In this document: piece after piece, positions 1,597 to 27,278 of the stretch | Position numbering within the stretch: position 1 is the first letter of the stretch | Layout of the letters: the number at the start of each line of letters is the position of its first letter | Source: Rhodospirillaceae bacterium | GTDB taxonomy: Bacteria > Pseudomonadota > Alphaproteobacteria > Dongiales > Dongiaceae | Direction: 5' to 3' | Length of the DNA stretch: 64,000 bases | Assembly: GCA_008012315.1 (NCBI GenBank) | Contig: SSEL01000002.1 | Span: 62,001 to 126,000, forward strand | Position numbers and translations under genes: made by a program | The notes under the pieces: generated by a model | The model's database searches: none | What the model was told of the DNA's origin: nothing | Seen by the model: only the letters and a program-made list of their open reading frames with translations

Positions 1597-1609
1597 GAGG
1601 CAACTTCCT

Positions 1610-2023
1610 ATGTCTGGCAATATTGCGGCAAAGCCTTTGCAACGCGCGGAAATCGCTAAGCGGACCGGCTGCAACCTGGAGACCGTGCGGTATTATGAGA
1701 AGGTTGGCTTGCTGCCGGAACCCCCACGCACCGAGGGCGGTCATCGCGCCTATGACGCTAACCATGAGCGTCGGCTGCGATTCATCCTGAGGGCGCGGGA
1801 GCTTGGCTTCGCGTTGGATGAGGTAAGAACCTTGCTCAGACTTGTCGACGAGCGGGACGCCCCTTGCGGCGAAGTCCGCGACGTTGCCGCGGCTCACCTG
1901 CGAGACGTGCAAACAAAGATCGCTGACCTAAGGCGCATGGAGCGCGTGCTAAAAGAGACCGTTGCACAATGTGCTGACGGAGCGCGGCCCGAGTGCCCGC
2001 TGGTAGAAAGCTTGTTTCGGTAG
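1610..2023 (+). CDS. merR: MerR family mercury-responsive regulator
   Basis: Winged-HTH 'RTGCNLETVRYYEKVGLLPEP', Cys residues in C-terminal half, divergent from merTP. Confidence 0.88.
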   Translation: MSGNIAAKPLQRAEIAKRTGCNLETVRYYEKVGLLPEPPRTEGGHRAYDANHERRLRFILRARELGFALDEVRTLLRLVDERDAPCGEVRDVAAAHLRDVQTKIADLRRMERVLKETVAQCADGARPECPLVESLFR

Positions 2024-2342
2024 ATCGGAGCGCTTCCAGGGCTTCAATCTCACACTTCGGGCGGAATGTCTGGGTGCTTTGCCAAGGCATTGAAGGTGCC
2101 GCCTGAGCGTAGCCCAGTAAGCTCGTGCTGTCGCGGCATCGAAATGATACAGGAGCGGTAACTCATTCCTGAAGCGGCAGCCTCGATATTTGAGTCCTGC
2201 CAATGGTGCTTAAGTTCAACCGCCTTACTCGACGAAGAGATATCAAAGTAACGCCCCAGAACTTAGCGACGGGAAGCAAGAGACTCCCATCTCACTTGCT
2301 ACCCTTTATTCGTAAACCGTGTCACGACGGCACTGTTCGGTC

Positions 2343-4226
2343 TCACGGCATTTCAAAACGGCCACCTTCGATATTCGGATTGCGCCGTGACGGGTCGCGC
2401 CGCTGGCATTCGATCATGATGTCGCGGGCGATAGGTGCTGCAACGGCGGCTCCGCCGCCGCCATGTTCCACCACAACACAACAGGCATAACGCGGAGCAT
2501 GAACGGGCGCGAAGCAGACAAACAAAGCGTGATCTCTCTGGTGCCAAGGTAGGTCATCATTTTTCCGCACACCGTGGCTGCGTTCAGCCATGCTGATGCG
2601 CCGAACCTGGCTGCTGCCGGTCTTCCCTGCCAGTTCCATGCCGGGAATGGCGATACGGGCGCGGAATGCGGTTCCACGCTCCTCGTTCGACACCCGGTCC
2701 ATGCCGGTTCTGACGATCCGTAGGAAATCCGGGTCGACCTCGATGGGTGGGTAGGTACTTGGTCCCTCTGCCTTCGCTTGCTCATTCTCAGTGGCCAGTC
2801 GCACGAGGTGGGGTTTAACGGCATAGCCGCCATTGGCGATCCGTGCCGCCATCACGCAAAGCTGCAAGGGTGTTGCCTGGACGAAGCCCTGGCCGATTGC
2901 GTTCACCAGGGTTTCGCCTTGGTGCCAAGATTCCCCCATTGTCGCCTTCTTCCAGGCGCGGTCTGGAATGAGGCCACCTTTCTCGCCCGGCAGATCGATT
3001 CCGGCAGGCTCTCCGAGGCCAAAATCCCGCGCCATCGCCGCTATTGAATCAATCCCAATCCGGCGCCCCATCTCATAGAAATAGACATCGCAAGAGTTTT
3101 TCAGTGCGTCTGTCATGGCTTGGGTCCCATGACCCTCCTTGCGCCAGCAATGAAAACGGGCGTTGCCAAGCACAGTGACGCCGCTGCAGAAAACGGTCGC
3201 ACTTGGGTTGATCCCCGCCTTGAGCGCGGCAAGTGCGGTCATCAGCTTGAACGTAGATCCGGGGGGATACTGCCCCGCCGTAGCCTTGTTTGTAAGGGGT
3301 CCATAAATGTCCGCCGCCAGTTCCTGCCACTCGGCAGGCGTGAGGCCGCGATAGAAAGCAGCGGGATCGTAGGACGGCGTCGAGGCCATAGCGAGAACGT
3401 CGCCGGAGAAGATATCCATGACCACGGCCGCACCCGATAGCTCGCTTGACAGGCGTTGGTGAGCAAATTGCTGTAGACCGATATCGAGCGTTGTAACAAG
3501 ATCCGCGCCCGGAAGGCCTTCTTCGCGCGATAGCTCGCGAATAATACGTCCGACGGAATTGACTTCGAGCTGGCTTTCTCCCGCCTTGCCGCGCAAGGAG
3601 AGATCATATTGCTTTTCCAAGCCATTCCGGCCCAGGCGGAAGCCTGGCAGTTGTAAGAGAGGATCAGGATCTTGCGCTACATCGCTGTCCGAAGCGGCAG
3701 CAACATAGCCGATGATATGAGATGTGATCCCCCCGAAAGGGTAATAGCGCTTCTGATCGACATCGATGCTGATGCCGGGAAGATCCGGCAGGTTCAACTC
3801 GATCTCCGCCAATTGCTCCCAGTTGAGGTCCTGCTTGACGGCTATCGGTGTAAATGCGCGGCTCTGCGCAAGTAGCTTCGAGATTTTTCGCCTCTCGTGC
3901 TCCGAGATCGGCACCAGACGACCGAACGCACCCAACGTCTGATCGAGATCAGGCGACTGTTCGGCGATAAGCATCGCTTGATAATTCGGAAAATTGCCAG
4001 CCAATGGCAGGCCAAACCGGTCGAGGATGAGCCCACGGGGTGGGGGTAGCAGGCGGCGATTGATCCGATTCTCGTCGGAAAGCATGCGGTATTTATCGGC
4101 TTCGACCACCTGCAGGTAATACATACGGCCGAACAGCAGCGAGAGAAGCAGCACCTGCCCACCGCCGAGCATAAAAACACGACGCGAGAAGACTTTCTGG
4201 AGTGTTTGGGCCTGGTGTTTATTCAT
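2343..4226 (-). CDS. mrdA: Penicillin-binding protein 2 (class B transpeptidase) paralogue
   Basis: N-terminal TM, STFK, SCD and KTGSS transpeptidase motifs all present. Confidence 0.9.
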   Translation of the reverse strand: MNKHQAQTLQKVFSRRVFMLGGGQVLLLSLLFGRMYYLQVVEADKYRMLSDENRINRRLLPPPRGLILDRFGLPLAGNFPNYQAMLIAEQSPDLDQTLGAFGRLVPISEHERRKISKLLAQSRAFTPIAVKQDLNWEQLAEIELNLPDLPGISIDVDQKRYYPFGGITSHIIGYVAAASDSDVAQDPDPLLQLPGFRLGRNGLEKQYDLSLRGKAGESQLEVNSVGRIIRELSREEGLPGADLVTTLDIGLQQFAHQRLSSELSGAAVVMDIFSGDVLAMASTPSYDPAAFYRGLTPAEWQELAADIYGPLTNKATAGQYPPGSTFKLMTALAALKAGINPSATVFCSGVTVLGNARFHCWRKEGHGTQAMTDALKNSCDVYFYEMGRRIGIDSIAAMARDFGLGEPAGIDLPGEKGGLIPDRAWKKATMGESWHQGETLVNAIGQGFVQATPLQLCVMAARIANGGYAVKPHLVRLATENEQAKAEGPSTYPPIEVDPDFLRIVRTGMDRVSNEERGTAFRARIAIPGMELAGKTGSSQVRRISMAERSHGVRKNDDLPWHQRDHALFVCFAPVHAPRYACCVVVEHGGGGAAVAAPIARDIMIECQRRDPSRRNPNIEGGRFEMP

Positions 4227-4366
4227 GGGGAATGCCAGGGCAGCTAGCGTGGCAGCTCATGCTGCCCCATGATTCTGGGACAGTTCCATTCAACTCCTCT
4301 TGACCTTGCGACCATTGGAAGGTGCACAGTTTGAATCCTGACAAGGGCCAGGTCAGGAGGCGCTCA

Positions 4367-4585
4367 ATGATAAGGGTGAAGGTAGACGATTTAAGAAGCA
4401 GCCATACTGCGGCTGTTATCGCACGCGCGATCAGAAATATCGATGCAAGAGCACTCGTGGCGGTCGATGTGCGCACGAGGATGGTGTCAATTGCAAGCAA
4501 GCTCGATCCTTGCAGGTTTGTCGTTGCCATTCGCGAATCCGGGTACAAGCCTTACCTAGTCCCGGTGCGACGCAGTCACGCTTAG
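4367..4585 (+). CDS. Degenerate HMA-like protein lacking CxxC
   Basis: MIRVKVDDLRSSHTAAVIARAIRNIDARALVAVDVRTRMVSIAS...IRESGYKPYLV follows the HMA pattern with SSHT where CxxC is expected. Confidence 0.55.
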   Translation: MIRVKVDDLRSSHTAAVIARAIRNIDARALVAVDVRTRMVSIASKLDPCRFVVAIRESGYKPYLVPVRRSHA

Positions 4586-4662
4586 GGGTAACCCGAAGAC
4601 GAGTTGAGGTCCGGCGTCTTCAGCTCGGCGGAACCAAACCGAATTTCGCTCGACATCGCCAG

Positions 4663-5397
4663 TCATCCGATCCGCCCAAGAGCCGGAATGTTTTCCAGAA
4701 ACCAGTACGACAGTGCTGAAAGTTGGCCGGTGACCATCAATACGCCCATGGCCATCATCACCATCCCTGCCATCACCTGCAGCCATCGGCCTGTCCGGCG
4801 TAAGCGTGCCAAGGTTGCCGTGAGCGCGTCTGCCGAGCAGGCGACAATCACGAAAGGAAGCCCCAAACCCAGCGCATAAGTCGCCAAGTAGGCGATGCCA
4901 TGCGAAATGGTGGTTGAGACGGCGGTCAAAGTGAGAATCGTACCCAGTACCGGGCCAATGCATGGCGTCCATCCAAAGCCAAAAGCCAGACCGAGGATGA
5001 GAGCGCTGGCTGGGCGTCCGCCTGGGATCTGCGGATGGACCCTGAACTCGCTCATAAACCATCTCGGGCGCAATATGCCCATGGCGATGAGGCCGAAGGC
5101 AATGACGACGGCACCTGCGACAAAATTGAGTTCGTATCGATAGGATAGGAGGAGACGCCCGAGCACCGTGGCGCTCGCACCGAGGGCCATAAAGACGAGC
5201 GTAAATCCGGCAACGAAGCAGGCGCTCAACCAGAAGCTTCGCATTCGGCGCTGGGTTCGTGAAGTTGGATCTTGCACCGTGTGTCCGGCAATGAACGAGA
5301 CGTAGCCGGGCACCAAGGGAAGCACGCAAGGTGACAGGAAAGAAATAGCGCCAGCGACAAAGCTGGTCGTCAGTCCGAGATGTCCGTAATCAGCCAT
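4663..5397 (-). CDS. ccdA: CcdA family cytochrome c biogenesis / thiol-disulfide transmembrane protein
   Basis: 'FLSPCVLPLVPGYVSFIAG' motif; multiple TM segments; ATG at 5397. Confidence 0.9.
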   Translation of the reverse strand: MADYGHLGLTTSFVAGAISFLSPCVLPLVPGYVSFIAGHTVQDPTSRTQRRMRSFWLSACFVAGFTLVFMALGASATVLGRLLLSYRYELNFVAGAVVIAFGLIAMGILRPRWFMSEFRVHPQIPGGRPASALILGLAFGFGWTPCIGPVLGTILTLTAVSTTISHGIAYLATYALGLGLPFVIVACSADALTATLARLRRTGRWLQVMAGMVMMAMGVLMVTGQLSALSYWFLENIPALGRIG

Positions 5398-5417
5398 GGT
5401 CCTTTGTCCAAACGGAT

Positions 5418-5702
5418 TTAGTGGTCGGCGTCGTTCTTTTGATTGCCGCCATCGCCGCCACCTTTCTTTCCACCCATACAGAGACCGAGCGCACACATTG
5501 CGGCGCAAGGGAGTAGGCCGACGATTACTGGCGCTACACCGGCGGTAATGAGCCAGTCGCGCTTCATATAGAGCCCTACCGCGACGGCCACGATCCCGAT
5601 CATTAGAATGACGCGCCGATTTGCCAATGCAGCGCGCAACAGCGACGATAATTGGCTTTTGGGATTGATATTGGCTCCCATGCTCATGATTTTGCTCTCC
5701 AT
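5418..5702 (-). CDS. Small membrane protein with Cys/Gly-rich tail
   Basis: Two hydrophobic segments; position within operon. Confidence 0.55.
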   Translation of the reverse strand: MESKIMSMGANINPKSQLSSLLRAALANRRVILMIGIVAVAVGLYMKRDWLITAGVAPVIVGLLPCAAMCALGLCMGGKKGGGDGGNQKNDADH

Positions 5703-5722
5703 CGCCGTGCGCTATTTGGACC

Positions 5723-6244
5723 TCAGTTGGGTTGAATGTATTTTCTCAATAAGGTTTGCATATCGGCGCTATCCCACTCTGCTGGCCCAATCAGCCTTGC
5801 CAGTTCCTCGCCTCTCGGATCGATCAAGAGTGTCGTCGGGAGGCCGGATACGCCGAGATCTCCCGTAACCCGCGTGGTCGGATCGACATAGATCGGTAGA
5901 TGTTGGACATTGAGGTCGGCGAAGAACTTCTTCACCTTGTCCAGCCCTTCCGTATCGATTGAAAGGGTAATGACCTGGAATCGCTCGCTGCCCAGCGTTG
6001 CCTGCAGCCGATCCAAGGTGGGCATTTCCTTGCGGCAGGGCCAGCACCAGGTTGCCCATAGGTTGAGCAGAATGGTTTTGCCGCGAAATTCCTCTAGTTT
6101 GTGCGTTGCGCCAGCCTCATCCTGAAACGAGATGTTCGGCAATGATCGCGGCTTATCCTGAAAGACGAGGTTGCTGTCCTGCGCCTTTGCCGCGTTGCCC
6201 ATTGCCACCAAGACGGTCGCCATGATCAACAATCTCCTGATCAT
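5723..6244 (-). CDS. TlpA-like thiol-disulfide oxidoreductase
   Basis: Signal peptide; WATWCWPCRKEMP thioredoxin-like motif. Confidence 0.9.
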   Translation of the reverse strand: MIRRLLIMATVLVAMGNAAKAQDSNLVFQDKPRSLPNISFQDEAGATHKLEEFRGKTILLNLWATWCWPCRKEMPTLDRLQATLGSERFQVITLSIDTEGLDKVKKFFADLNVQHLPIYVDPTTRVTGDLGVSGLPTTLLIDPRGEELARLIGPAEWDSADMQTLLRKYIQPN

Positions 6245-6900
6245 GGCTTGGTGCCCCCGGTGGCCGCCCGGAGCTCTGTCACCATTGGCAGGATTTCCGC
6301 CGTTATGTCTTCATCGGTGAGGGGGCCGACGTGTCGCAATATGACTCGTCCATCTGCGCCGATGAGAAATGTCTCAGGCACACCGTAGATGCCCCAGTCT
6401 ATCGCGACGCGGCCGTTAAGGTCGGCTCCCGTCCTGGTATAGGGGTCTCCGTTTGTATCAAGCCAGGCAGCCGCATCGGCAGGCTTGTCCTTGTAATCGA
6501 TGCCGTGGATCGAGAGGACATGTTGGGCGGCCAGTTTCATCAGCACAGGATGCTCGGCCTTGCAGGCAACACACCAGGAGGCGAACACATTCACCAGTGA
6601 GACCTCGCCTGACAGATCCTTGCTTGCGAGGCCAAGCTCGCGGCCCTGGACGGGTGGCAAATCGAATTGCGGTACCTCTTTGCCGATCAGGGTCGAAGGT
6701 ATCTCCGACGGGTCCCGGCCCAGCCCGAAGAGAAAGACGGCCGCAAGGAAAAGAAAGGCGAGTAGCGGTGCTAGAAAGAGAGGGCGCCACCACCGGATTT
6801 TCCGTGCGGTTTCAGGGTGCTGTTGACCGCTAAGTGCCTCTGGCCCAACAGTCGGCTCTGTGCTGATCGCGGGCGCATCCTTTAGCATCTTCAAAACCAT
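6241..6900 (-). CDS. DsbE/CcmG-type thioredoxin-like protein
   Basis: TM anchor; FASWCVACKAEHP motif; GVPETFLIGADGRV. Confidence 0.88.
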   Translation of the reverse strand: MVLKMLKDAPAISTEPTVGPEALSGQQHPETARKIRWWRPLFLAPLLAFLFLAAVFLFGLGRDPSEIPSTLIGKEVPQFDLPPVQGRELGLASKDLSGEVSLVNVFASWCVACKAEHPVLMKLAAQHVLSIHGIDYKDKPADAAAWLDTNGDPYTRTGADLNGRVAIDWGIYGVPETFLIGADGRVILRHVGPLTDEDITAEILPMVTELRAATGGTKP

Positions 6901-7589
6901 GCTTTCAGCCTGTCCCAGAAGCTGGGCTCGCCATGCTCGTGTGGAACCTGAATGTGATTGGTGAGCGCATTGATGTAGACGACGAGATTCGCCGGGTCGA
7001 ATTGCAGGCCATGGAATCTGGCTCGTAATCGGCCGTCTTGATCGATGACATGGGTCACGACCCCATGCATTTGTACGTCGTTTGAATCTTCAGTGAATTT
7101 GAGTCCGTATGCCTCGGCAAGCTTCCGCGTGACATCTTCAGGCGCGTCCTTTGGCACCGTCAGAAATACCCAGTTGGCCGAACTGAGGCCATGTGCCTTG
7201 CCGTAGCTCCGGAGAACGTCTGCCGTGTCGCGCTTGGGATCGGTTGTGATGGTGATGAATTCCACCTTCTCTTTCATCGGTGTCTGATTGACCATCGATT
7301 GGATCTGCGCGATCCGTTCGGCATGCAAGGGGCAGACGTCGGGACAGTTCGTGTAGATGAAATGCAGGACGACCACCTTTCCTCGAAAGTCAGCCCAACG
7401 GACAAGATGTCCGTCCGCATCCTGCAAGGCGAAGTCTGGCGTCGCGCTATCGACAGGCTGAAAATATTGCTCTGCGCCTTTGAGTTCTTCATTGAGTTCC
7501 TGCAGCGAATGCGCATGCGCTGGCGGGATAGCCGCCAGCACCAGCGCAGACGCCAAGGCAATGGGTAAAAATGCTCTTACCTGGGTCAA
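6891..7589 (-). CDS. SCO1/SenC family copper chaperone
   Basis: FIYTNCPDVCPLH copper motif and distal MHGVVTHV His. Confidence 0.9.
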   Translation of the reverse strand: MTQVRAFLPIALASALVLAAIPPAHAHSLQELNEELKGAEQYFQPVDSATPDFALQDADGHLVRWADFRGKVVVLHFIYTNCPDVCPLHAERIAQIQSMVNQTPMKEKVEFITITTDPKRDTADVLRSYGKAHGLSSANWVFLTVPKDAPEDVTRKLAEAYGLKFTEDSNDVQMHGVVTHVIDQDGRLRARFHGLQFDPANLVVYINALTNHIQVPHEHGEPSFWDRLKAWF

Positions 7590-7594
7590 TTCCG

Positions 7595-8035
7595 TTACTC
7601 GACCGCGTAGACGGTGGGGTCCTTACCATCCTTGGTAAAGGCGTAGATCTTGAATGGCTCAGCTTTGGCACCCGGCATCCCAGGGGCACCCGTCGGCATT
7701 CCAGGCAAAGTAATGCCAGCGATGGCCGGGCGCTCCTTCAGGAGCTTCTGGACAACATCGATTGGGACGAGGCCGTCAATGACATAACCTTCCACAAACA
7801 TCGTGTGGCAACCTTCGAGATTTTCGGGGACTCCGGCATTTTGGCTGATCTGAGCCAGGTCATTGGTCGGCTTCAGCTCGACCTTGAATCCATTCTGCTC
7901 CAGATAGGCGGCGTAGCCCTCGCAGCAGGTGCATTGGGGATTTTTGTAGAGGACCGCCGGAATAACATCGGCCAAAGCGGGCAGAGGTGCCGTCAGCAAC
8001 GTTGCAAGGGCACCGAAGCGAATGATCTTCTTCAT
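7595..8035 (-). CDS. DUF411 domain metal-binding protein
   Basis: 'YKNPQCTCCEGYAAYLEQNGF' and 'CHTMFVEGYVIDGLVP' motifs. Confidence 0.85.
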   Translation of the reverse strand: MKKIIRFGALATLLTAPLPALADVIPAVLYKNPQCTCCEGYAAYLEQNGFKVELKPTNDLAQISQNAGVPENLEGCHTMFVEGYVIDGLVPIDVVQKLLKERPAIAGITLPGMPTGAPGMPGAKAEPFKIYAFTKDGKDPTVYAVE

Positions 8036-8067
8036 CTAAGTCTCCTTAGTTGGGCAAGGTTAGAGGG

Positions 8068-9525
8068 TTATGCGACGCGTAATACGGTCATCAGACCGGA
8101 CACCTGGTGATCCATGACATGGCAATGAAGCATCCAGTCGCCGGGGTTATCGGCAACGAAAGCGCAGTCCACGGTTTCTTTCGGCGGCACCAGAACGGTG
8201 TCGCTCCACTGATGGTGTGGCACGGCAACGCCGTTACGGCTCACTACCCGGAAGCTATGGCCATGGAGGTGCATGGGATGCCACCAGGCGGTCTGGTTCC
8301 GAATGGTCAGGATGTAGCTCTTGCCGCGCTGTAAGGTGAGGAGCGGTTGCATGCCGGACTGGCCATCGCCCGTCATCGACATGCCATTGATCGCCCAGAC
8401 CGCGCCGCCATCCATGCCGGGCATGGCCATGCCGTTCATACCGCCCATCCCAGTCATCATACCGCCGCCCATCATGCCGCCTTGCAATGTGATGTCGTGA
8501 TGCTCTGCGGCAACCAGGTCAGGCTCAGGCGTTGGATTGCGCGGTAACTGAAGTGGGGTTTCGAGAGGATGCGCCCGGACCGGCGCGTCCTCGCTATAGG
8601 ATAGATTTGTCAGGGTATAGGCGAGGTCCTGATAGAAATCGTCAGTCACCGCATAGCGCTGACCAGGGTCGCCCTGCATATCGATCATCACGTCGATGCG
8701 CATGGCTGGGCCTAGGAGCAGACGGCCGCCTTCCGGCTCATGCGGCTCGCAAGGCTGACCGTCAATCGCGACAATGACAGGGCGATGGCTGTCAAAGCGT
8801 AGCGCCATTATCCGGGCAAGCGCGGCATTGAGCAGTCGCAATCGGATACGCTCACCGGCTCGGACGGGCTGATCGGCCGGGACGGTGCCATTCAAGGTGA
8901 CGGTATTGCCGACACGGCCCGCCATTCCGGCGTCCATCATGTTGCCGAAGCCGGTCGCCAATTGCTTGTTTGGCTTAAGCCGCCAATCCGTCAGGACCCA
9001 GAGAATGTCCCGATCAACCGCTACCGGCTCTGGCTCCTCAATAATCAGAGCTCCCGCAAGACCCCTGCCGAGCTGCTGCAGGCTGTTAGCGTGGGGGTGA
9101 TACCAGAAGGTACCAGCATCTGGCGGCGTGAATTCATAGGTGAAGCTTTCGCCGGGTTTGATGGGCGGCTGCGTCAAGCCCGGAACGCCGTCCATGGCGT
9201 TAGGCAACCGGATGCCGTGCCAGTGCACTGTCGTGTCCTGATCGAGTTTATTCGAGACGACGACTTGCAGCGGCTCGCCTTGCCGCGCACGCAGGACCGG
9301 CCCAGGAATCTGTCCGTTATAATTCCAGACATCAGTAGGTTCTTGGCCGGGGCCAAACAGGTGCGCCTGTCCTGGAACTGGTGCGATCTGGTATTCCGTT
9401 GCGGCAGCCGCCAATACCTGGCGGCGCGATCCGGCCGCGGCCAAGACCATACCGCCACCAGCGCGAAGCACTGCCCGGCGCGAAATGAGAAAGCCGAATG
9501 CACGAGTCACAATTGGACCCTTCAA
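8068..9525 (-). CDS. Multicopper oxidase with Tat-like leader and Met-rich segment
   Basis: HWHGIRLPN, WYHPHAN, HPMHLHGHSFRV, HCHVMDHQ copper motifs; MMGGGMMTGMGGMNGMAM Met-rich loop. Confidence 0.92.
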   Translation of the reverse strand: MKGPIVTRAFGFLISRRAVLRAGGGMVLAAAGSRRQVLAAAATEYQIAPVPGQAHLFGPGQEPTDVWNYNGQIPGPVLRARQGEPLQVVVSNKLDQDTTVHWHGIRLPNAMDGVPGLTQPPIKPGESFTYEFTPPDAGTFWYHPHANSLQQLGRGLAGALIIEEPEPVAVDRDILWVLTDWRLKPNKQLATGFGNMMDAGMAGRVGNTVTLNGTVPADQPVRAGERIRLRLLNAALARIMALRFDSHRPVIVAIDGQPCEPHEPEGGRLLLGPAMRIDVMIDMQGDPGQRYAVTDDFYQDLAYTLTNLSYSEDAPVRAHPLETPLQLPRNPTPEPDLVAAEHHDITLQGGMMGGGMMTGMGGMNGMAMPGMDGGAVWAINGMSMTGDGQSGMQPLLTLQRGKSYILTIRNQTAWWHPMHLHGHSFRVVSRNGVAVPHHQWSDTVLVPPKETVDCAFVADNPGDWMLHCHVMDHQVSGLMTVLRVA

Positions 9526-9624
9526 AATGACGATAGGCCAGGGAACGCGGACCCTCTTTGGCTATAGCCACGAGGCGGCCTAACAAGGCGAGCGAAAGCT
9601 CACGCGCGTTCCGACGATCAGCGC

Positions 9625-9644
9625 ATAGCCGGTTTCTCGGCTAT
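9625..9644. repeat. Perfect 7-bp hairpin ATAGCCG-gtttct-CGGCTAT between multicopper oxidase and the upstream gene
   Basis: Read directly. Confidence 0.5.
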
Positions 9645-9651
9645 CACTGAG

Positions 9652-10023
9652 TCATGCAAGGTCGATGGATCTAGGTGGGAAAGGTTCCGGCGCCGTCAAA
9701 CGGCCCATGAGAAGTTGGGGCGTAGGAGGGGCAATCCGGTCAAGTGTGAAACTGAAGGCCATAGGCAGGCCTTCAGGCAGTAGGGCGGCAACGGAGGTGG
9801 CGCAAATCGAGCCACAGGTCATCATTTTGACGCCGCCCCCGTCCTTGCCGCAGGCATGGCAATCGCTGGTCCCGGCCGCACCCATATCGGATGCCATCGC
9901 CATGGTATCGGGCATCGCCTTGCCCGTCATACTGTCAGTTTGAAGTAACTGCAGGCTCATACCGAGAGCGACGAGCGCGCTCAGCACGAAAGAAAAAACC
10001 TGACGGACAGTTCTAGGCTTCAT
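9652..10023 (-). CDS. Small exported Cys-containing protein of copper cluster
   Basis: N-terminal hydrophobic leader; CHACGKDGGGVKMMTCGSIC. Confidence 0.6.
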   Translation of the reverse strand: MKPRTVRQVFSFVLSALVALGMSLQLLQTDSMTGKAMPDTMAMASDMGAAGTSDCHACGKDGGGVKMMTCGSICATSVAALLPEGLPMAFSFTLDRIAPPTPQLLMGRLTAPEPFPPRSIDLA

Positions 10024-10164
10024 GGCACTCTAGGATGGCCAGATTATGATCGGAATTCAAGTTCGAATGCTTGGTTGCGACCTTTGGGCGGTAATCCAAA
10101 CCCTCCCATGTGGCAAGCTTGGTCAGCCAATTCCTGCGACCTGTCGGCACCCTTCCCGTCAGCG

Positions 10165-11133
10165 CTATATGGCGCAGCCACGCTGACTCATCTGGATGTT
10201 CCTTGGCATGAATTCGGCCAGTTTGATTGTCGAATTAACGTTGCGTTGCCATCCGGTCAGGGTCGAAAACTCAGGCCCGAGTATCAGGCGAGGCTCGGTG
10301 TCTCGCCACATGACACCGTCAAACAGGGCCAAATGGAGCGCTGTCTTCGCATATTGCGCGGGGAACCAGTGACTGTTGGCAATAAGGGCAAGCCGGTAGA
10401 GGTCGTCCACAGATAGGCCCTGTGAAGCACCCAGTTCGAGCAAGCCGAGGAGAGCGGAGCCATGGTTGCAGTCCTGCAGAAGTGTTGAGTTGTCGCAGCA
10501 GGGGCGAAAGCTCGTGGACGCAACCTGTTTTACCCGCGCCTCCTGCTCATCGGTCAACAGAACTGCGGAGACCTTGTTGAAATAGGCTGCGCCATTCTCC
10601 TCGTGCCCCAATGTCCATCCGGCCGTGCTGGCGAGGTTCGGAAGATTTGAGGTATTCACTGGGCTGGTTTCGTTAAACTTGGTCTTCGTCGACAATCCAA
10701 TGGGCCAGAACAGATTCAAAAGATGAGGCGCCGTGTCGAGGCTAAAGACGATTGGTTCAAATGAGGGTTTGACTAATAGCCCTTCCAGCCAAGCTGGAAC
10801 GCTGCCATTCACCCCATAATTGGCTCGCAACTTGCCTGGGTCGAGGGCGCCAGCAGCAATCACCTTTTGTAGGGAATCACCGAAGGTTACCTGGGTGTTT
10901 ATCCCGCCAGTCGGTACCATCTCGCTGAGCACATCCTGATAGCGAATGAACGGGTCTGGAAGGAAACGCTGCCGGGCGTAAAAGGCTCCCGCAGCCACCA
11001 AACCACCGATGCCAAAGGAGGCCGTGAGCGCAAGGGCGAAGCGTCGGCGCGTGACGACAATGTTCTCGTCGTGGCGCCGAGGCTCAACTGCACTGCTACT
11101 CGGAAACGGATCTGCCATGCCTGATCCTAACAC
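10165..11133 (-). CDS. Tat-leader exported protein with CCDNSTLLQDCNHGSALLGLLELGASQG motif
   Basis: VTRRRFALALTASFGIGGLVAAGAF leader; Cys/His-rich central motif. Confidence 0.6.
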   Translation of the reverse strand: MLGSGMADPFPSSSAVEPRRHDENIVVTRRRFALALTASFGIGGLVAAGAFYARQRFLPDPFIRYQDVLSEMVPTGGINTQVTFGDSLQKVIAAGALDPGKLRANYGVNGSVPAWLEGLLVKPSFEPIVFSLDTAPHLLNLFWPIGLSTKTKFNETSPVNTSNLPNLASTAGWTLGHEENGAAYFNKVSAVLLTDEQEARVKQVASTSFRPCCDNSTLLQDCNHGSALLGLLELGASQGLSVDDLYRLALIANSHWFPAQYAKTALHLALFDGVMWRDTEPRLILGPEFSTLTGWQRNVNSTIKLAEFMPRNIQMSQRGCAI

Positions 11134-19101: not shown

Positions 19102-19390
19102 TCAATATGGATCTGCCCATGGCGTTAGATTGCATGCCTACCAGGTAGCACCATCCCCATTATAGTCTTTGGGATTTTGCAATTAACGGACGTTGCAAAG
19201 AATCCAGGAACGGGCTTTAAACCTATCTAACCCTGGTCTTGAACTCAGCCTGCGGAGAACGCTGTGCCAAAAAGCGAAACCCCAGGAGGGGCCAAGGCCT
19301 GTCCTGGGGCTCTATCTGATGCCAGGGGCGCATGCCATTGGATGGCAGAGGGGCCGCACTGACTGCTTGTTCGCGTATAATGGATATCCG

Positions 19391-20530
19391 ATGGCTGAAC
19401 GTCAAGAAGAGTTCGCGTATACTCCTAACCTATTAAATTCTCTAGAAAAATCTCTGTCGGCGCCAAGGTTCGGGTCATATGTGGTTCGGGGTGGAGGGAA
19501 TGACAAAGTCTATGCCCTTGACCTATATCTTTTTAACGCGCGCCTCGCTAAAGCCCTGCTTTTTCCACTGCACGTCGCCGAAGTCACCGTCAGAAATGCA
19601 GGGAACGAGATATTGGTCAAAGATTTTGGATCTGATTGGCCAGGCCCGGCTGCCGCCTTCAGGACAAACCTACCTGCACCGCATCCCGCAACCGCAATCG
19701 ACAAAGCTGTTGAGCGACTGCAGACGGACGGCGTCCTTCAGCCCACCACTGATCAAATCGTGGCGACACTGACATTTGATTTTTGGTCCAATCTCTTTCG
19801 CTCCGACTATGATCGATACATCTGGCAGACAAACATCCACGCGGCTTTTCCAAATCTGCCGCAAATCGAAGGACGGCCAGAAGTTCAGAAACTCGCGAGA
19901 AGTGTGAATCGTCTTCGAAATAAGGTCGCTCACCATGAGAGCCTCCTAGACGTTCAGCGGCTGCCAGATGAGCTCGACATACCAGGGCAACTGAGCCAAA
20001 TCCTCAAATTGATCGCGTTGAGGTGCAAAGAGACGGCTAAGTGGACGAAAGCTCATAGCACAGTCGGACGCGTGCTGCGTGATCGACCGACCAAGCATGT
20101 AGGTCGAACGGGCCAACCCGCTATAGACCGCGCCATTCGCAAGTTCGAGACCTTGAAAGAGAGCGATAAGGTCGGCGATGCCCTCGAAAAAATCATCAAG
20201 CATCAAGAAGCAATTGCTGTCGTAGAGCTCACGGAGCAAGAAGCTCCGTTCGCGCTGCTCAGTAGTGAGGACGTTGCAAGATGGCTCTCATCAAGCCACT
20301 TGGATGGTTACGTCTGCCTCAGCGACGGAACAATTAAAGATGTGCTGCAAGCGTCGCGGCCTCGATCAATATTGATCAAGGATAAGCAGGTTACTGTACC
20401 GGAAATAACGCAGCTAATGTACGAACCTGGGAAGAGTAGCAAAGAACGCCCATCAGCAGTCATCATAACCGAGGGTATCCCGCCGACACCTGTTGGCATC
20501 ATCTTGCGGCCTCATACGAGGCTGACATGA
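19391..20530 (+). CDS. Abi-like HEPN protein with C-terminal CBS-pair-like region
   Basis: Abi signature 'IVATLTFDFWSNLFRSDYDRYIWQTNIHAAFPNLP'; RNKVAH = RX4H HEPN motif; C-terminal repeats resembling CBS motifs. Confidence 0.75.
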   Translation: MAERQEEFAYTPNLLNSLEKSLSAPRFGSYVVRGGGNDKVYALDLYLFNARLAKALLFPLHVAEVTVRNAGNEILVKDFGSDWPGPAAAFRTNLPAPHPATAIDKAVERLQTDGVLQPTTDQIVATLTFDFWSNLFRSDYDRYIWQTNIHAAFPNLPQIEGRPEVQKLARSVNRLRNKVAHHESLLDVQRLPDELDIPGQLSQILKLIALRCKETAKWTKAHSTVGRVLRDRPTKHVGRTGQPAIDRAIRKFETLKESDKVGDALEKIIKHQEAIAVVELTEQEAPFALLSSEDVARWLSSSHLDGYVCLSDGTIKDVLQASRPRSILIKDKQVTVPEITQLMYEPGKSSKERPSAVIITEGIPPTPVGIILRPHTRLT

Positions 20531-20847: not shown

Positions 20848-21756
20848 GTGCCGGATCTAGCCAGAAATAAGCAAACTCGGGACATTCATTCTGCCGCGGA
20901 ACTACGAGTGGTCGAAGAGCTGCGGGATGCGACGTGGGAGTGCCCCGATTGTGCCGTAGAAATGCATGCAGCCGCTGTTGATCCGGACAGGGAGTTCAAG
21001 AAGGCTCCCTACTTCACTTCCAAAGCTAAGCATATGGACGATTGTCGCGGAGATGGCATCTGGGAAGACGTGGCACCAGGACCTCGACGCCGGGCGAATG
21101 ATCAAATGCTGGCTGCCGCACGTATTCCCGTAGGGCTCCGCTTGGCGCAACAACGTCTGCGTGTCAATCGGGTGGAAGGGGAAGAAGTAGCGGCTCCGCA
21201 ACCCCAAAATCGGAATTACATCCGACCGGCGCCCGACGGCAATGATCGGCAACGGGATTTAATTGCAGGAACGATCCATCGGATTGCCGAAGCGTACGCA
21301 ACGTTTGATATCGACGAATTGCCGCTTGAAATAGCGGGCTGTGTCGGCAACACCTACGGTACCTGCTTTGAGCGGTTAGGCAACATATGGCGGCCCCAAC
21401 AATATCCCCGCAAAATTTATTACGCGGAACTGGCGTTCCAGCGTTTCGTCACTAATGCAAACAGCATCCAAGTGTTCCTGTATCCGGCTCTCATGCCTCA
21501 GGGCCCAAGAGGGGAGGGAAATCAGCTTCAGCGGCTTTCCGTCACTTTCGACATGAATGATTGGACAGATCGTCGAAGAAACGGATTTCAAGATGACTTA
21601 GAAACTTATCGCCGAGAGCAAATGAGGCTTCGGAATGAAAATGCGGATACCCTCGTACATTTGTTCTTCCTTGGGGATCAAGACCCAGGGAACCTTCTAA
21701 ACTTCGTCGTCAACGATCCTCGGTTGGCGGCATTTATCAGAATGCCACCTGCCTAA
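20848..21756 (+). CDS. Hypothetical protein with N-terminal zinc-ribbon/CoiA-like segment
   Basis: WECPDCAVEMHAAAVDP..KAPYFTSKAKHMDDC; GTG start. Confidence 0.55.
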   Translation: MPDLARNKQTRDIHSAAELRVVEELRDATWECPDCAVEMHAAAVDPDREFKKAPYFTSKAKHMDDCRGDGIWEDVAPGPRRRANDQMLAAARIPVGLRLAQQRLRVNRVEGEEVAAPQPQNRNYIRPAPDGNDRQRDLIAGTIHRIAEAYATFDIDELPLEIAGCVGNTYGTCFERLGNIWRPQQYPRKIYYAELAFQRFVTNANSIQVFLYPALMPQGPRGEGNQLQRLSVTFDMNDWTDRRRNGFQDDLETYRREQMRLRNENADTLVHLFFLGDQDPGNLLNFVVNDPRLAAFIRMPPA

Positions 21757-22259
21757 GCTGCTACTGAAGGCGAATGAAAAGCTGCCTGGGAAGATACGTT
21801 TGCTAGCCGCCTTAGACTGCGAGCAGCGAGGATATGGAATATATCGACGCCTGCTTCCTGCTGGATGCCAGTGAGTAAGGTGCCTGCAAGGTCGTAGCTA
21901 AGGACCGATCCGTGGTCCCTCTGGGTTTTGCAAAATTCGATGATGACCGATCCCCATATGGCAGATGAATGAGCCTCGACGAATTCACTCGTCACGCGAC
22001 TGACCCAGTCCGAACGGTCAATACTTCTCCACAAATTTCCACGGTCATGTAGGTATATGCCGAAGTGATCCGCGCCCCGGCGTGCTGCCGGTGCCAGCGA
22101 ATTCCACCAGGCGCAGAGGTAATGAACGCCCTCGACCCCTCCGATGGCTTGAGCCTTGTTAAGTGTCGGGGCAGGCAAAAGGGGAAGCTGAATTGTATCA
22201 GTCAGGGTTTCAGACACAATTTTGGGCAAGCTTTCGTGGACCATAATGTCGACCTCCAA
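21753..22259 (-). CDS. Hypothetical protein downstream of the cyclase operon
   Basis: 168-aa ORF, 4-bp convergent overlap with 20848..21756; same strand as cyclase operon. Confidence 0.5.
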   Translation of the reverse strand: MEVDIMVHESLPKIVSETLTDTIQLPLLPAPTLNKAQAIGGVEGVHYLCAWWNSLAPAARRGADHFGIYLHDRGNLWRSIDRSDWVSRVTSEFVEAHSSAIWGSVIIEFCKTQRDHGSVLSYDLAGTLLTGIQQEAGVDIFHILAARSLRRLANVSSQAAFHSPSVAA

Positions 22260-22401: not shown

Positions 22402-23196
22402 CTAGCTTTTTCGCCTCAGCGGACAGTCATGCATTGTGCCGCAGCATGCGCGTTTCTTATGCGAGCGCCAAAAGTCCGCCTCTGCTGCCTGCCAATTAGC
22501 CTCGGTGAGCACCAGGCAGATCTTCTTCTTTTTGCGGCACTCACGCCGGAGGTATGGACGGCCACGTCTACCTTTGTACCCGCATAGGCACGGGAGTCTC
22601 CCGTTGAGCAAACGTTTCCGGTCCGGGTTCACCAGCCATTGATTGTCGACGATCCAGCCTCGACCTGATCGCGCCTGAAGAAGATCCGCCTCTTTGCCAA
22701 GGATCTGGGCAGCCGTCTCAGCCGCGAACTGATAAATAGCCGCATCACCATGTGCCAACTCAGCATAGCGGGGCCAGAATCCACTCTCCGCCGCAGTGTC
22801 TTGGCACAACAGGTAAAGCTCAACCTTTTGCCACCAAGAGATCGCATTCTCGGGTGTGGAAATGCCAATCTCGGCTCGATAACCAAGGCAAAATGACTGG
22901 TCAGAATTGATGTGGCGTTGGGGACAGAACGTCGGAAGCTGACCATATCCGTCCTCTCTGACCTCGATCTCCTCTGCATCAGTCTCTTCGATCAAAAGAT
23001 TGTAGGACCGGCCTTCAACGCCTCCGGCACCCATGGGGCGCGCCGAAACGGACAATCTATTTACCCGGTATTTGCGGATAAATACCCAAGCTGGGACATG
23101 GCGGGCAATAAGCTGTAACGCTGTTGGAGAACTCATTGCCGCGCCGGTACCGCCAAAATTACCTGTCGGAATACGAACGTGCTGACGGTTGCTCAC
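22402..23196 (-). CDS. Cys/His-rich protein resembling E2-associated cysteine-rich proteins
   Basis: FCPQRHINSDQSFCLGYRAEI ... LPCLCGYKGRRGRPYLRRECRKKKK ... RACCGTMHDCPL; GTG start at 23196, alternative ATG at 23136. Confidence 0.6.
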   Translation of the reverse strand: MSNRQHVRIPTGNFGGTGAAMSSPTALQLIARHVPAWVFIRKYRVNRLSVSARPMGAGGVEGRSYNLLIEETDAEEIEVREDGYGQLPTFCPQRHINSDQSFCLGYRAEIGISTPENAISWWQKVELYLLCQDTAAESGFWPRYAELAHGDAAIYQFAAETAAQILGKEADLLQARSGRGWIVDNQWLVNPDRKRLLNGRLPCLCGYKGRRGRPYLRRECRKKKKICLVLTEANWQAAEADFWRSHKKRACCGTMHDCPLRRKS

Positions 23197-24646
23197 TCAC
23201 GATTTTGACAACCGGCGACGTCGGCAATCCGAGAAGGTTTGCCGCCACCGGGTATTCATGAAGGACACCGCTGGAGAAATACTTCCGTACATTGTCATTC
23301 GCGTGTCGATGAGCTTCAGGACCCATGCTGAAGCCACCGCCTTCGATGCCCTGCTGCTGGAGCTCAGAGACAACAACGGCGAGACCGGCCGCACACCGGA
23401 TGCTCTCTTCACCAGGGTGACCGATCCGGGTCAATGGAATTGGACCATACTCGATCCCAATCGCGAGATCCAACGGGGCCAGACCTTCGACAATCGTGGT
23501 GCACAGCTTAAATGACGACTTCATCGCCGTCGCACATTCTACCGCGTCTTGCACTGTGCCTTTCGGGTCGTCTTTTTCCTGTCCTTCCGCCATCAAGCCG
23601 TGAATGCAATCACCAATGAAGCGGACGCGTTTGCCCTTGAAGTCTTCTTTGAGAACGTCATTCAGCTCTTCGCGGATGGTATGAATTCCAACCACTGCAC
23701 GCCGGATAGCCTCAATTCCTTCCCTCATCGCGTTGTCGACAAACTTGGTATATCCGTCGATATCGGCAAAAAGAGATACCATTCCCCGGCGGATAGTGCG
23801 TGACGGCACCAGGTCGTCAAAGTCCACTGACGACAGAGGAAGGGTAGGACGAACGAACGTGAAGTTCGGGCGCTGCAAGGCTGCCTGAACCACCTTTTGG
23901 GTCGCTGCATCAATAGAGGTGAAAGTAAAGGACTTACGGAGTTCCTCAAGCAGCCGCTGTGGCGCGGCTACACCTGTCTTCCAGGGATCAGACGGACGAT
24001 CATTGAGGATGCTGTCGGCATGGTCGGTCAAGTGAACGCCAGGACCGTCCTTTTCCTTTGCCGCCAACTTTGCAGCATGATTGGCCGGACGCCCAAGGAA
24101 CAACGTATCAGTGTCATGGGAGCGACCGGCAGTCATGGCAAGGCAGTTGCCGTGATCAATGCCAAAGCGAAATGTGGCAGGAATGTTGTAGGCAGCAGCG
24201 ATCTGTCGCATTGCCTCATTCAACTTGTCAGCTAGCGCCACCGCCTTACGCACCTGTTCTTGCGGCTTGCCTTTAGGTTCGACAACGATGGCATGCAGTC
24301 TCGGGCCATGGAAATCCACGCGAATGGCATCTTCGCCGTCCACGATGGAGTCCCACACCTGGTAGTATGCATTGAGAAACGTCAGAATCCGACGATGACT
24401 TGCCTCGGTCTCGGTTCTATCTTGATCGAGAACGATTTCATTGAAGTTCATCATCTGGCCATATAGATGCGCACCCTCAACCAATAGGGCCACACCATTC
24501 GGGAACGATTTGGTTGCAGATTTCTGAAGCGCTTCCGCCTTCATGATATTGCGGTGCTCAAGAAGGCTGAGTTTCGGGTCGACCTTCGGCGCACGCACCA
24601 TGTGCTGCTTGATCCTGGCCGTAGCGCGTTGCTTATCCCAAGCCAT
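23159..24646 (-). CDS. Protein with two tandem class III nucleotidyl cyclase-like domains
   Basis: C-terminal domain SLFADIDGYTKF ... VRFIGDCIHGLM; N-terminal domain RFGIDHGNCLAM ... FLGRPANHAAKLAA. Confidence 0.82.
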   Translation of the reverse strand: MAWDKQRATARIKQHMVRAPKVDPKLSLLEHRNIMKAEALQKSATKSFPNGVALLVEGAHLYGQMMNFNEIVLDQDRTETEASHRRILTFLNAYYQVWDSIVDGEDAIRVDFHGPRLHAIVVEPKGKPQEQVRKAVALADKLNEAMRQIAAAYNIPATFRFGIDHGNCLAMTAGRSHDTDTLFLGRPANHAAKLAAKEKDGPGVHLTDHADSILNDRPSDPWKTGVAAPQRLLEELRKSFTFTSIDAATQKVVQAALQRPNFTFVRPTLPLSSVDFDDLVPSRTIRRGMVSLFADIDGYTKFVDNAMREGIEAIRRAVVGIHTIREELNDVLKEDFKGKRVRFIGDCIHGLMAEGQEKDDPKGTVQDAVECATAMKSSFKLCTTIVEGLAPLDLAIGIEYGPIPLTRIGHPGEESIRCAAGLAVVVSELQQQGIEGGGFSMGPEAHRHANDNVRKYFSSGVLHEYPVAANLLGLPTSPVVKIVSEQPSARSYSDR

Positions 24647-24655
24647 TCATATCTC

Positions 24656-25828
24656 CTAAGACCAATAGACGATCAAATCGGTATTCTTTACGCGGGCATT
24701 GAAGGGGCCATGAAGGATGATTTCGTTGGCGTCGTCCTGCTGCCTCATGAAGTCAAAAAATTCTTGGCTGACGCGGATGGCACCAACCGCATCGGGATCG
24801 GAAGCAGGCAACTGATCAGCTTTGCGCCCGACATCTGAGGCGCGCATTTGCTCGAAGCGGGCGCCGCGGTTAACCGTTTCTCCGATTAGCGTAACGGCTA
24901 TGCGATTGTCGGTGCCGAAATCACCGAAACAAGCGGGGCCGTAATGCAAGCCAATGCGAAGAGACAATTCCGAGGTGCCGAGTTCTTGAATCCGCTGGGC
25001 GAAGTCGCTCACAACTTGTGACGCCGCAGCATAAGCTCGCAATGCGACATCTTGTTGATAGTGACCTTCACAGAACCAATAGGCCATCAAGCCGTCACCC
25101 ATCAGTTTGTCTATCTCTCCTTTGAACAACGCGATGGTCTGCATCTGTAGACCCATAAGAGCTGCCACAACCTCGGCCACGCGTTCAGGAGTTTGTCGAT
25201 TGGCCCAGGTGCTGAAACCGGCGATGTCGCTGAACCAGACGATCACTTCCCGTCTCCTTATGGGAAGTGTTTCTCCAGATAGGGCGGTCCGTACGAAACC
25301 GAGCGCCGTATGGTCGCAGAATCTCGACAGCAGGCGACTCTGTGCGCCGATCTCACCATGCAGCCCCGCACGCTGGGTGCTCGCTTGTTCAAGCTTCTCG
25401 TTTACGACATTTGCCAGCAGCGAGAAGATTTGAGCGCGCTGTTCAGAAGGCACTCTTTCAATGAGCCCGGCATCGAACTCCAGCAACGTAGTGTCTCCAT
25501 GGCATTTCATGTCTGCCGTTCGACCCGTTGCACGCCCCTTCCTAATTGCCGAGGGCGTTTGCGCCGACAGAAAAGCCATCTCACCGATTAGTTCTCCGGC
25601 AGCACGTTCTTGAAAGAACGTACCGTCGGCATAGTAGATATCGACCTGTCCCTCGACGATCAGCCAGAAGCAGGTGGCGACGTCACCTGTCCGACAAAGG
25701 ACATGGTCGTGGCGATACTTTTGGATGGTATGGAAAGCAGAATCCGTCAGCAGCGTGAAAAGGGAATCGGCCGCCTCCGAATAATCGGAGAGAAAATTGC
25801 GCAGCACGTTCGGCCATTCTTGCATCAA
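24656..25828 (-). CDS. Cyclic-nucleotide-binding (CNB) domain fused to class III adenylate cyclase
   Basis: CNB: FWLIVEGQVDIYYADGTFFQERAAGELIGEMAFLS; cyclase: FSDIAGFSTW, DKLMGDGLMAYW, RIGLHYGPACFGDFG, TLIGETVNRGARFEQ. Confidence 0.88.
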   Translation of the reverse strand: MMQEWPNVLRNFLSDYSEAADSLFTLLTDSAFHTIQKYRHDHVLCRTGDVATCFWLIVEGQVDIYYADGTFFQERAAGELIGEMAFLSAQTPSAIRKGRATGRTADMKCHGDTTLLEFDAGLIERVPSEQRAQIFSLLANVVNEKLEQASTQRAGLHGEIGAQSRLLSRFCDHTALGFVRTALSGETLPIRRREVIVWFSDIAGFSTWANRQTPERVAEVVAALMGLQMQTIALFKGEIDKLMGDGLMAYWFCEGHYQQDVALRAYAAASQVVSDFAQRIQELGTSELSLRIGLHYGPACFGDFGTDNRIAVTLIGETVNRGARFEQMRASDVGRKADQLPASDPDAVGAIRVSQEFFDFMRQQDDANEIILHGPFNARVKNTDLIVYWS

Positions 25829-26173: not shown

Positions 26174-26824
26174 ATGAGGCCATCCCAACACCAAAGTGCA
26201 TTGCGTTGTCCGCTCAATGACATTCTCGGCTCAGAGGCTGGTGTGCGTCTCATCCGAGAACTAGTTCGGCATGGAGGAGCCTTGAGCACCGCCAGGCTCG
26301 CGCATGCCGCCGGAATGACCCGATTTGGTGTAGGCAAGACCCTTACGTTGCTTGCCGCAATCGGTGTCATCGAGAAAATTGGAAGCGGCAAATCGATCCT
26401 TTATCGCGTCGAAGCACAGCATCCATTGATTCCTGCCATCGGTGCCTTATTCCGTGCCGAAGATGAACGCGTCGACGGGATAATCGATGCCATCGCTAAG
26501 GCGACCAACGATCCGGAGATTGTTGGTGCCTGGATCTATGGCAGCTTTGCCAGGGGCGAGGATACTATCGATAGCGATCTCGATATCGCCATTGCAACCA
26601 CTACCCGAAACATACAGCTCGCCGACAATGTCCGCTCTGCTCTCGATCAAGCTGCCGAAAAACTCTTCTTCTCTCCATCCGTCGTCGACATCGATTTAGC
26701 AGATGTAGAGCGATTGAGTACCGGCGATCCCTGGTGGACGAACCTCGTCAAGGAGGCCATCGTGGTCAAGGGAGAGAGGCCGGAAATCGTGGCCAAGCAC
26801 CGCAGGGTCAAAGCTCATGGTTAG
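26174..26824 (+). CDS. HTH-MNT minimal nucleotidyltransferase (antitoxin of HEPN-MNT module)
   Basis: GSFARGEDTIDSDLD = GSX10DXD; N-terminal winged-HTH-like region. Confidence 0.85.
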   Translation: MRPSQHQSALRCPLNDILGSEAGVRLIRELVRHGGALSTARLAHAAGMTRFGVGKTLTLLAAIGVIEKIGSGKSILYRVEAQHPLIPAIGALFRAEDERVDGIIDAIAKATNDPEIVGAWIYGSFARGEDTIDSDLDIAIATTTRNIQLADNVRSALDQAAEKLFFSPSVVDIDLADVERLSTGDPWWTNLVKEAIVVKGERPEIVAKHRRVKAHG

Positions 26825-27278
26825 GACGGGTCCCACCAAGACAGTGTCGTCCTCGCATGTACTTGGCCGTCTTCGGAAAGCCCGCAAATTCATGGATATC
26901 GCCCGCAATGAGATGGAGCTTGCCGACAAGAGCGATGAAACTGATCCGATAGTGTCAAACATGATTCTTGGCGCTATCGCCTATGCGGATTCACTGACCG
27001 CAGCGACCATTGGCGAGGTGAATCAAGGGGATCACGCCGGAGTAATAAAGGTCGTCCGCAAGGCCCTCGGTGATAGATTCCCAAAAGCTCAAGAAGGGCA
27101 TCTCAAAGCATTGCTGCAGAGAAAGGACCAGTCACAGTACGGCAGTGCCTTCGGTCCCTATCAGGCCGCGGAAAGCCTGTTAAAACACGCGAAAGAATTC
27201 TCTGCATGGGCCGAGCTCGAGCTGAAACGTATCCAACCAGGACTGGAGAGTACCAGTCACGATAAAAAGAAAGAATGA
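26817..27278 (+). CDS. HEPN-like partner of MNT
   Basis: 8-bp overlap with MNT gene; all-helical composition; no canonical RX4-6H seen. Confidence 0.6.
   Translation: MVRTGPTKTVSSSHVLGRLRKARKFMDIARNEMELADKSDETDPIVSNMILGAIAYADSLTAATIGEVNQGDHAGVIKVVRKALGDRFPKAQEGHLKALLQRKDQSQYGSAFGPYQAAESLLKHAKEFSAWAELELKRIQPGLESTSHDKKKE

Follow-up and report, generated by a model that had tools for sequence, protein, structure and literature searches.

A Pycsar-type operon with an E2 conjugating enzyme and a second cyclase as putative effector in a Rhodospirillaceae bacterium

The window analysed here is a 64,000 nt stretch of DNA from a Rhodospirillaceae bacterium (GCA_008012315.1, contig SSEL01000002.1, positions 62,001-126,000), and all coordinates below refer to it. 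Three genes on its minus strand form one tight operon, encoding in order a cyclase with a cyclic nucleotide-binding (CNB) domain, a double cyclase, and a Cys-rich protein. The operon is interpreted as an unusual form of the pyrimidine cyclase system for anti-phage resistance (Pycsar), in which an E2 conjugating enzyme accompanies the messenger-making cyclase PycC, and a second, different cyclase takes the place of the usual killer protein. An E2-regulated Pycsar anti-phage operon with the second cyclase as effector is the best explanation, with a probability of about 0.5. The family identities, the intact catalytic residues in the three proteins, the conserved cassette, the exclusivity of the effector slot and the tail signature of PycC were all computed here. 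The operon was filed as a Pycsar variant and not as a cyclic oligonucleotide-based anti-phage signaling system (CBASS), because the cGAS/DncV-like nucleotidyltransferase (CD-NTase) is absent.

The first-pass annotation had described three open reading frames (ORFs) with a 9-bp gap between the CNB-cyclase (ending at 24656) and the double cyclase (starting at 24646), and had proposed one Pycsar-related operon with two functionally different cyclases. These points were borne out, and Pfam confirmed the domain content. The matches above the Pfam cut-offs are a CNB domain (PF00027) and a cyclase domain (PF00211) in the first protein, PF00211 twice in the second, and E2-ntca (PF20298) with E2-Crich (PF20272) in the third. 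The CNB-cyclase more likely starts at ATG 25825 than at TTG 25828. For the third gene the ORF stood, but its GTG start at 23196 did not: ATG 23136 is the more likely start, because AlphaFold models residues 1-20 of the longer form with low confidence, and both Pfam domains stay intact without them. A 22-bp gap after the double cyclase therefore replaces the 38-bp overlap described earlier.

The first-pass annotation had not recognised the arrangement as a described system. It was wrong or incomplete in this respect: the double cyclase is itself of a known kind (clade A PycC), the gene order is not unique but occurs in 10 clusters including the window, and matching PADLOC models exist for all three proteins. 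The NCBIfam search gave nothing specific for any of the three, and the promoter and terminator scan of the operon was uninformative. The operon is not a chance arrangement, since the identical gene order recurs in other genomes and plasmids. Its PycC was not found in the 40 relatives searched, and the operon is therefore accessory.

The double cyclase and its conjugating enzyme

The double cyclase (23159..24646, minus strand) matched the PADLOC PycC model PDLC00762 (469 bits) and PDB 6yii (E=2.9e-66 across residues 18-458). The latter is PaPycC; in clade A, PycC carries two cyclase domains in succession, and the clades A-D produce cyclic UMP (cUMP) (PMC11224242). PaPycC itself makes cUMP (PMC12489823). 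The N-terminal half of the window PycC has lost the metal aspartates and kept Asn189/Lys193 and the pocket residues D111, H113 and R116; the C-terminal half has kept the metal pair D295/D346. All these retained residues are invariant across the clade A alignment. R116 aligns with the base-selecting R97 of BcPycC, and the catalytic roles are split between the two halves in the same way in PaPycC. The enzyme is thus a double-domain cyclase with one composite active site, and it is predicted from sequence to make cUMP. No PycC homologue was found in the phage records searched, and the viral contigs searched gave just four matches, weak and partial.

The Cys-rich protein (22402..23136, minus strand) is a prokaryotic E2 conjugating enzyme with a cysteine-rich tail, termed E2-Crich below. 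In the Foldseek search of the PDB, its AlphaFold model (pLDDT 88) retrieved almost only E2 enzymes, including the Serratia CdnG-E2 complex; none of these reached E=0.001. Cys103 (22888..22890, minus strand; numbered from GTG 23196) is at the catalytic-cysteine position of E2 enzymes and follows H95-I-N97. This cysteine, His95 of the E2 motif and three tail cysteines are invariant in 31 homologues.

Homologous loci were gathered from plasmids and one genome per species, with PycC and not E2 as the bait; at least 75 clade A PycC genes were listed, which form 55 clusters at 85% identity, and all counts of clusters and genes below are among the loci listed. Directly downstream of the clade A PycC, on the same strand, is an E2-Crich gene in 60/75 cases and an E2-E1 fusion in 14/75. 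The sole clade A PycC with neither is a truncated one (L104). Of these 14 E2-E1 loci, eight also have a JAB-type protease gene, whose motif in L076 is EWHSHP, and the E2-E1 and JAB relatives match the PADLOC E1-E2 and JAB models at full length. The reference P. aeruginosa locus (L001, NZ_CP115292.1) also has an E2-Crich ORF (6533-7306; Pfam 134 and 113 bits) straight after pycC, which is missing from the incomplete gene table used. Some loci hold a clade A PycC next to a single-domain PycC that has a PycTIR of its own; there the one conjugation gene comes after the clade A PycC. Tree distances of E2-Crich and PycC are correlated (r=0.82).

The E2 accompanies practically every clade A PycC, and is therefore more likely a cyclase regulator than an effector. 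The earlier proposal of the Cys-rich protein as the effector is disfavoured accordingly, its identity as an E2 resting on both Pfam and Foldseek.

Some loci carry further genes around the cassette. In two Bradyrhizobium plasmid loci, E2-Crich is followed by a gene for a Tle1-like phospholipase (DUF2235), possibly a further effector (L002, 3039-4325; L010, 8062-9333). In Burkholderia cepacia LK29 (L076, 9578-15370), PycC is followed by an E2/E1 fusion, JAB, PycTIR and a degenerate cyclase of 207 aa; this cassette adjoins a single-domain PycC, apparently BcPycC (Y50/D94/R97), which has a separate PycTIR.

The C-terminal tail of PycC is related to the type of conjugating enzyme, and not to the effector. 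Beside the type of E2-E1 fusion that occurs with JAB, PycC ends in GFA, and beside the other E2-E1 fusion it ends in RHA. A terminal Ala was found in 9/9 E2-E1 clusters, whereas only 2/45 E2-only clusters have it (Fisher p=1e-8). The JAB gene is present in 5/6 GFA clusters, and the sixth stops at a contig edge. CBASS cyclases with Cap2 and Cap3 likewise end in a conserved Gly/Ala, the mark of cyclases that Cap2 conjugates, whereas those without them show no conservation (Jenson et al., PMC10097602). The PycCs with E2 only show another signature: [RK]x[HY] near the C-terminus in 37/44 clusters, compared with 9.1 expected from shuffled tails. The tail of the window PycC (23162..23266, minus strand; ...SARSYSDR) carries the short motif RSY (23171-23179), where the E2-paired relatives have R-A-H. 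The locus L048 (Bradyrhizobium sp. CSA207, 1602-10205) was considered as a window-like PycC that had switched to the GFA tail, and this was rejected; it holds two adjacent cassettes back to back, PycC(GFA)-E2/E1-JAB and then CNB-cyclase-PycC-E2-Crich.

The CNB-cyclase in the effector slot

The putative effector, the CNB-cyclase (24656..25825, minus strand), consists of the CNB domain (25469..25723), a long dimerisation-type helix and a class IIIb adenylate-type cyclase domain (24659..25258). It is located directly upstream of PycC in 10/55 clusters, the window included, on the same strand and separated from it by -14 to +15 bp; the full order of CNB-cyclase, PycC and then E2 or E2-E1 was also found in 10/55. 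This slot is the place of PycTIR in P. aeruginosa. No cluster has the CNB-cyclase together with another receptor (TIR, transmembrane (TM) or CNB protein), whereas 40 clusters have other receptors instead; the CNB-cyclase therefore fills the effector slot. Its tree distances follow those of PycC closely (r=0.95, permutation p=0.0002), and the operonic CNB-cyclases, with the exception of L101, form their own clade.

An unbiased sample of 398 genomes from one order (that of genome G361, probably Rhizobiales) contained five CNB-cyclases. One of them was Pycsar-linked (L046-type locus); the other four stand alone with no PycC, and together with an orphan (G079) form a separate clade. The idea that every CNB-cyclase is Pycsar-linked was therefore rejected. 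The adjacency check suggested by the first-pass annotation was positive for PycC with E2 (74/75) and for the CNB-cyclase with PycC within the operonic clade, but not for the distant CNB-cyclases.

Other arrangements were seen around related genes. On pRLN3 of R. leguminosarum (L044, 5204-7101), a CNB-cyclase lies with a degenerate single-domain cyclase that has no catalytic Asn, and there is no E2 nearby. A divergent pair of a CNB protein of about 300 aa and a WYL-domain regulator was found upstream of PycC in L008, L012, L060, L063, L068, L070, L074 and L080, mostly from marine Alphaproteobacteria. Among these, the L008 CNB protein matches PycTIR models but has no TIR domain by Pfam.

The CNB-cyclase matched the PADLOC model PDLC00734 over its full length (319 bits). 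Its AlphaFold model has a pLDDT of 86, with the helix 128-168 joining the two domains, and the nearest folds in Foldseek were light-regulated adenylyl cyclases and the adenylyl cyclases CyaB and CyaC. Both metal aspartates (Asp201/Asp245), the pair Lys241/Thr313 and Asn320/Arg324 are kept in 17/17 CNB-cyclases. Lys and Thr are the adenine pair of the class IIIb adenylate cyclases. The pyrimidine-selecting residues of BcPycC are absent from the aligned CNB-cyclases. The enzyme is thus predicted to be of the class IIIb adenylate type and to convert ATP to cyclic AMP (cAMP). The PADLOC label 'PycC' of PDLC00734 is probably misleading, because the matched CNB-cyclase is adenylate-type and occupies the effector slot; the label may mislead the automatic annotation of such proteins.

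In the CNB domain, the residues for ribose and phosphate (Gly82, Glu83 and Arg103) are invariant in the 16/16 sequences that cover them. The base-reading position is different. The C-helix position of the uracil-reading N143 of PycTIR is Ser150 in the window protein, Ser/Thr in 16/17 CNB-cyclases, and never Asn. The helix register at this position is uncertain, as the profile and MAFFT alignments are one turn apart; Asn is absent in both. A CNB domain of the cUMP type, like that of PycTIR, is therefore unsupported by the residues.

Candidate mechanism and alternatives

The proposed mechanism would start with the clade A PycC, which may sense the infection and make cUMP, an activity suggested by homology and the active-site residues. 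The E2-Crich protein would act on PycC through its C-terminal tail, either priming or restraining it, as Cap2 or a stand-alone E2 does for CBASS cyclases; this action is proposed because of the near-perfect linkage and the match between tail class and enzyme class. The messenger would be read by the CNB domain, and the long helix would be reoriented so that two catalytic domains could pair and convert ATP to cAMP. Flooding with cAMP and draining of ATP would presumably stop the cell. The reading of cUMP by the CNB domain is the least certain step. A cyclase-to-cyclase conjugation has been proposed for type II-short CBASS, according to a citation in PMC11153139. The fuller version is a messenger relay, in which cUMP from an E2-controlled PycC switches on the second cyclase, combined with a 'type II Pycsar', in which ubiquitin-like machinery acts on a class III cyclase by conjugating its C-terminus; it is tentative and rather less likely than the main explanation as such.

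Several findings weigh against this mechanism. N143 of PycTIR corresponds to Ser128 of CRP, and the substitutions N143A and N143S abolish the cUMP response (PMC11224242); the Ser/Thr of the CNB-cyclases is thus a residue-level objection. Four of the five CNB-cyclases in the 398 genomes do without PycC. The window PycC ends in Arg and not in Gly/Ala, and no E1 or JAB is found in its operon. In the PycC tree all GFA members fall into a single clade, and the RHA members appear in two places with E2-only members between them; with only about three enzyme switches on the tree, ancestry explains part of the tail pattern. The suggestion of the first-pass annotation that the CNB-cyclase senses or amplifies the signal of the other cyclase remains the leading idea.

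The main rival, which is possible although clearly less favoured, is a switch autoregulated by cAMP, in which the CNB domain reads the product of its own enzyme in a bistable positive (or negative) feedback. PycC and E2 would then trip the switch by another route, or cUMP would act on a receptor outside the operon. The Ser/Thr at the CRP Ser128 position (16/17) and the adenylate-type pair (17/17), in operonic and stand-alone proteins alike, agree with it, and sensing of cAMP would be ancestral given the stand-alone relatives without PycC. However, in the 10 clusters lacking a TIR, TM or other CNB protein such a switch would leave the conserved PycC with no receptor, and the CNB-cyclase co-diversifies with PycC. 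The relay from cUMP to cAMP therefore still explains the gene order best overall, despite the objection from the residues.

The E2-Crich protein might itself be the effector step, attaching PycC, or some other protein, to a target of the phage or the host in the manner of the Bil systems, which use E1 and E2 against phage particles (PMC12948488). The invariant active-site Cys speaks for such a role; but no ubiquitin-like protein was recognised in the operons, the E2 accompanies every kind of PycC-linked effector, and the PycC tails match the conjugating-enzyme class, so that this explanation is unlikely. More improbable still is a guard like Panoptes, with one cyclase constitutively supplying a nucleotide whose removal by phage sponges or phosphodiesterases would trigger the system. 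Guarding by a decoy nucleotide is established for OptSE, and its authors expect versions that guard Pycsar (PMC12657218), but the operon has no membrane or TIR toxin for the nucleotide to hold off. The CNB-cyclase could also be an unrelated neighbour, a regulatory adenylate cyclase, with PycC and E2 working on an unlinked effector. Its stand-alone relatives (4/5 in the unbiased sample) would fit; but the close same-strand spacing to PycC, the separate operonic clade (L101 apart), the agreement with the PycC tree and the exclusion of other effectors make this the least probable of all.

An anti-phage role of the operon is suggested by its context, a defence island. The toxin-antitoxin and abortive-infection surroundings noted earlier were confirmed: an Xre/RES pair, a PIN protein, an Abi_2 protein below the Pfam cut-off, a PD-Lambda-4_B-like protein, a nucleotidyltransferase of the MntA/PDC-M05A kind and HipA. 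The Abi_2/PD-T4-5-like gene is at 19193-20530. The PD-Lambda-4_B-like protein (20848-21756, plus strand; 92 bits) has no recognised A partner adjoining it. The HTH-nucleotidyltransferase (26174-27278, plus strand; MntA/PDC-M05A-like) is followed by a weak HEPN-like ORF, probably as a toxin-antitoxin pair. The ORF at 21753-22259, once considered as a possible effector, belongs to no family, has no homologue among the relatives searched and, as an orphan, was rejected as a member of the system.

Comparison with known systems

The closest known system is the clade A Pycsar of PaPycC and PycTIR. It has the same double-domain PycC with a composite active site, a CNB receptor gene directly upstream, and an E2-Crich ORF after PaPycC. 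The window differs in the effector domain, which is a class III cyclase and not TIR, and in the CNB domain, which lacks the uracil-reading Asn. No TIR or TM gene, as in the known effector types PycTIR and PycTM, was found in the window operon. The Gly-Glu and Arg for ribose and phosphate are common to the CRP-type receptors, the PycTIR-type receptors and the CNB-cyclase; whereas the base-reading residue of the latter is Ser/Thr as in CRP, unlike the Asn of PycTIR.

The CBASS types II and II-short also link a nucleotide cyclase to E2, E2-E1 and JAB genes, and their E2 with the catalytic Cys has a counterpart in the window (Cys103, E2 fold). The C-terminal Ala of type II cyclases, where E1-E2 is present, is shared by relatives of the window PycC but not by the window PycC itself. 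WYL-domain regulators, known from CBASS, adjoin some relatives of the operon. In contrast to CBASS, both cyclases of the window are class III and there is no CD-NTase; the E2 belongs to the E2-ntca/E2-Crich family, and there is no E1 or JAB.

The PADLOC models cover the operon proteins as well as the E2-E1 and JAB relatives, and parts of the arrangement were therefore catalogued by 2023. A literature search that did not include Tal 2021, Burroughs 2015/2020 and Ledvina 2023 found no report linking Pycsar to ubiquitin-like conjugation or to E2, E1 or JAB. If the E2 (or E2-E1 with JAB) acts on PycC, control through cyclase conjugation would extend to an unrelated cyclase fold, and conjugation of a class III cyclase would independently parallel the action of Cap2 on CD-NTases. 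Pycsar has been described as a two-gene system; its best-known P. aeruginosa representative would then have a third gene. As an immune effector, the CNB-cyclase would work by producing a second messenger and not by destroying NAD+ or membranes; and if the relay holds, one immune second messenger would be converted into another.

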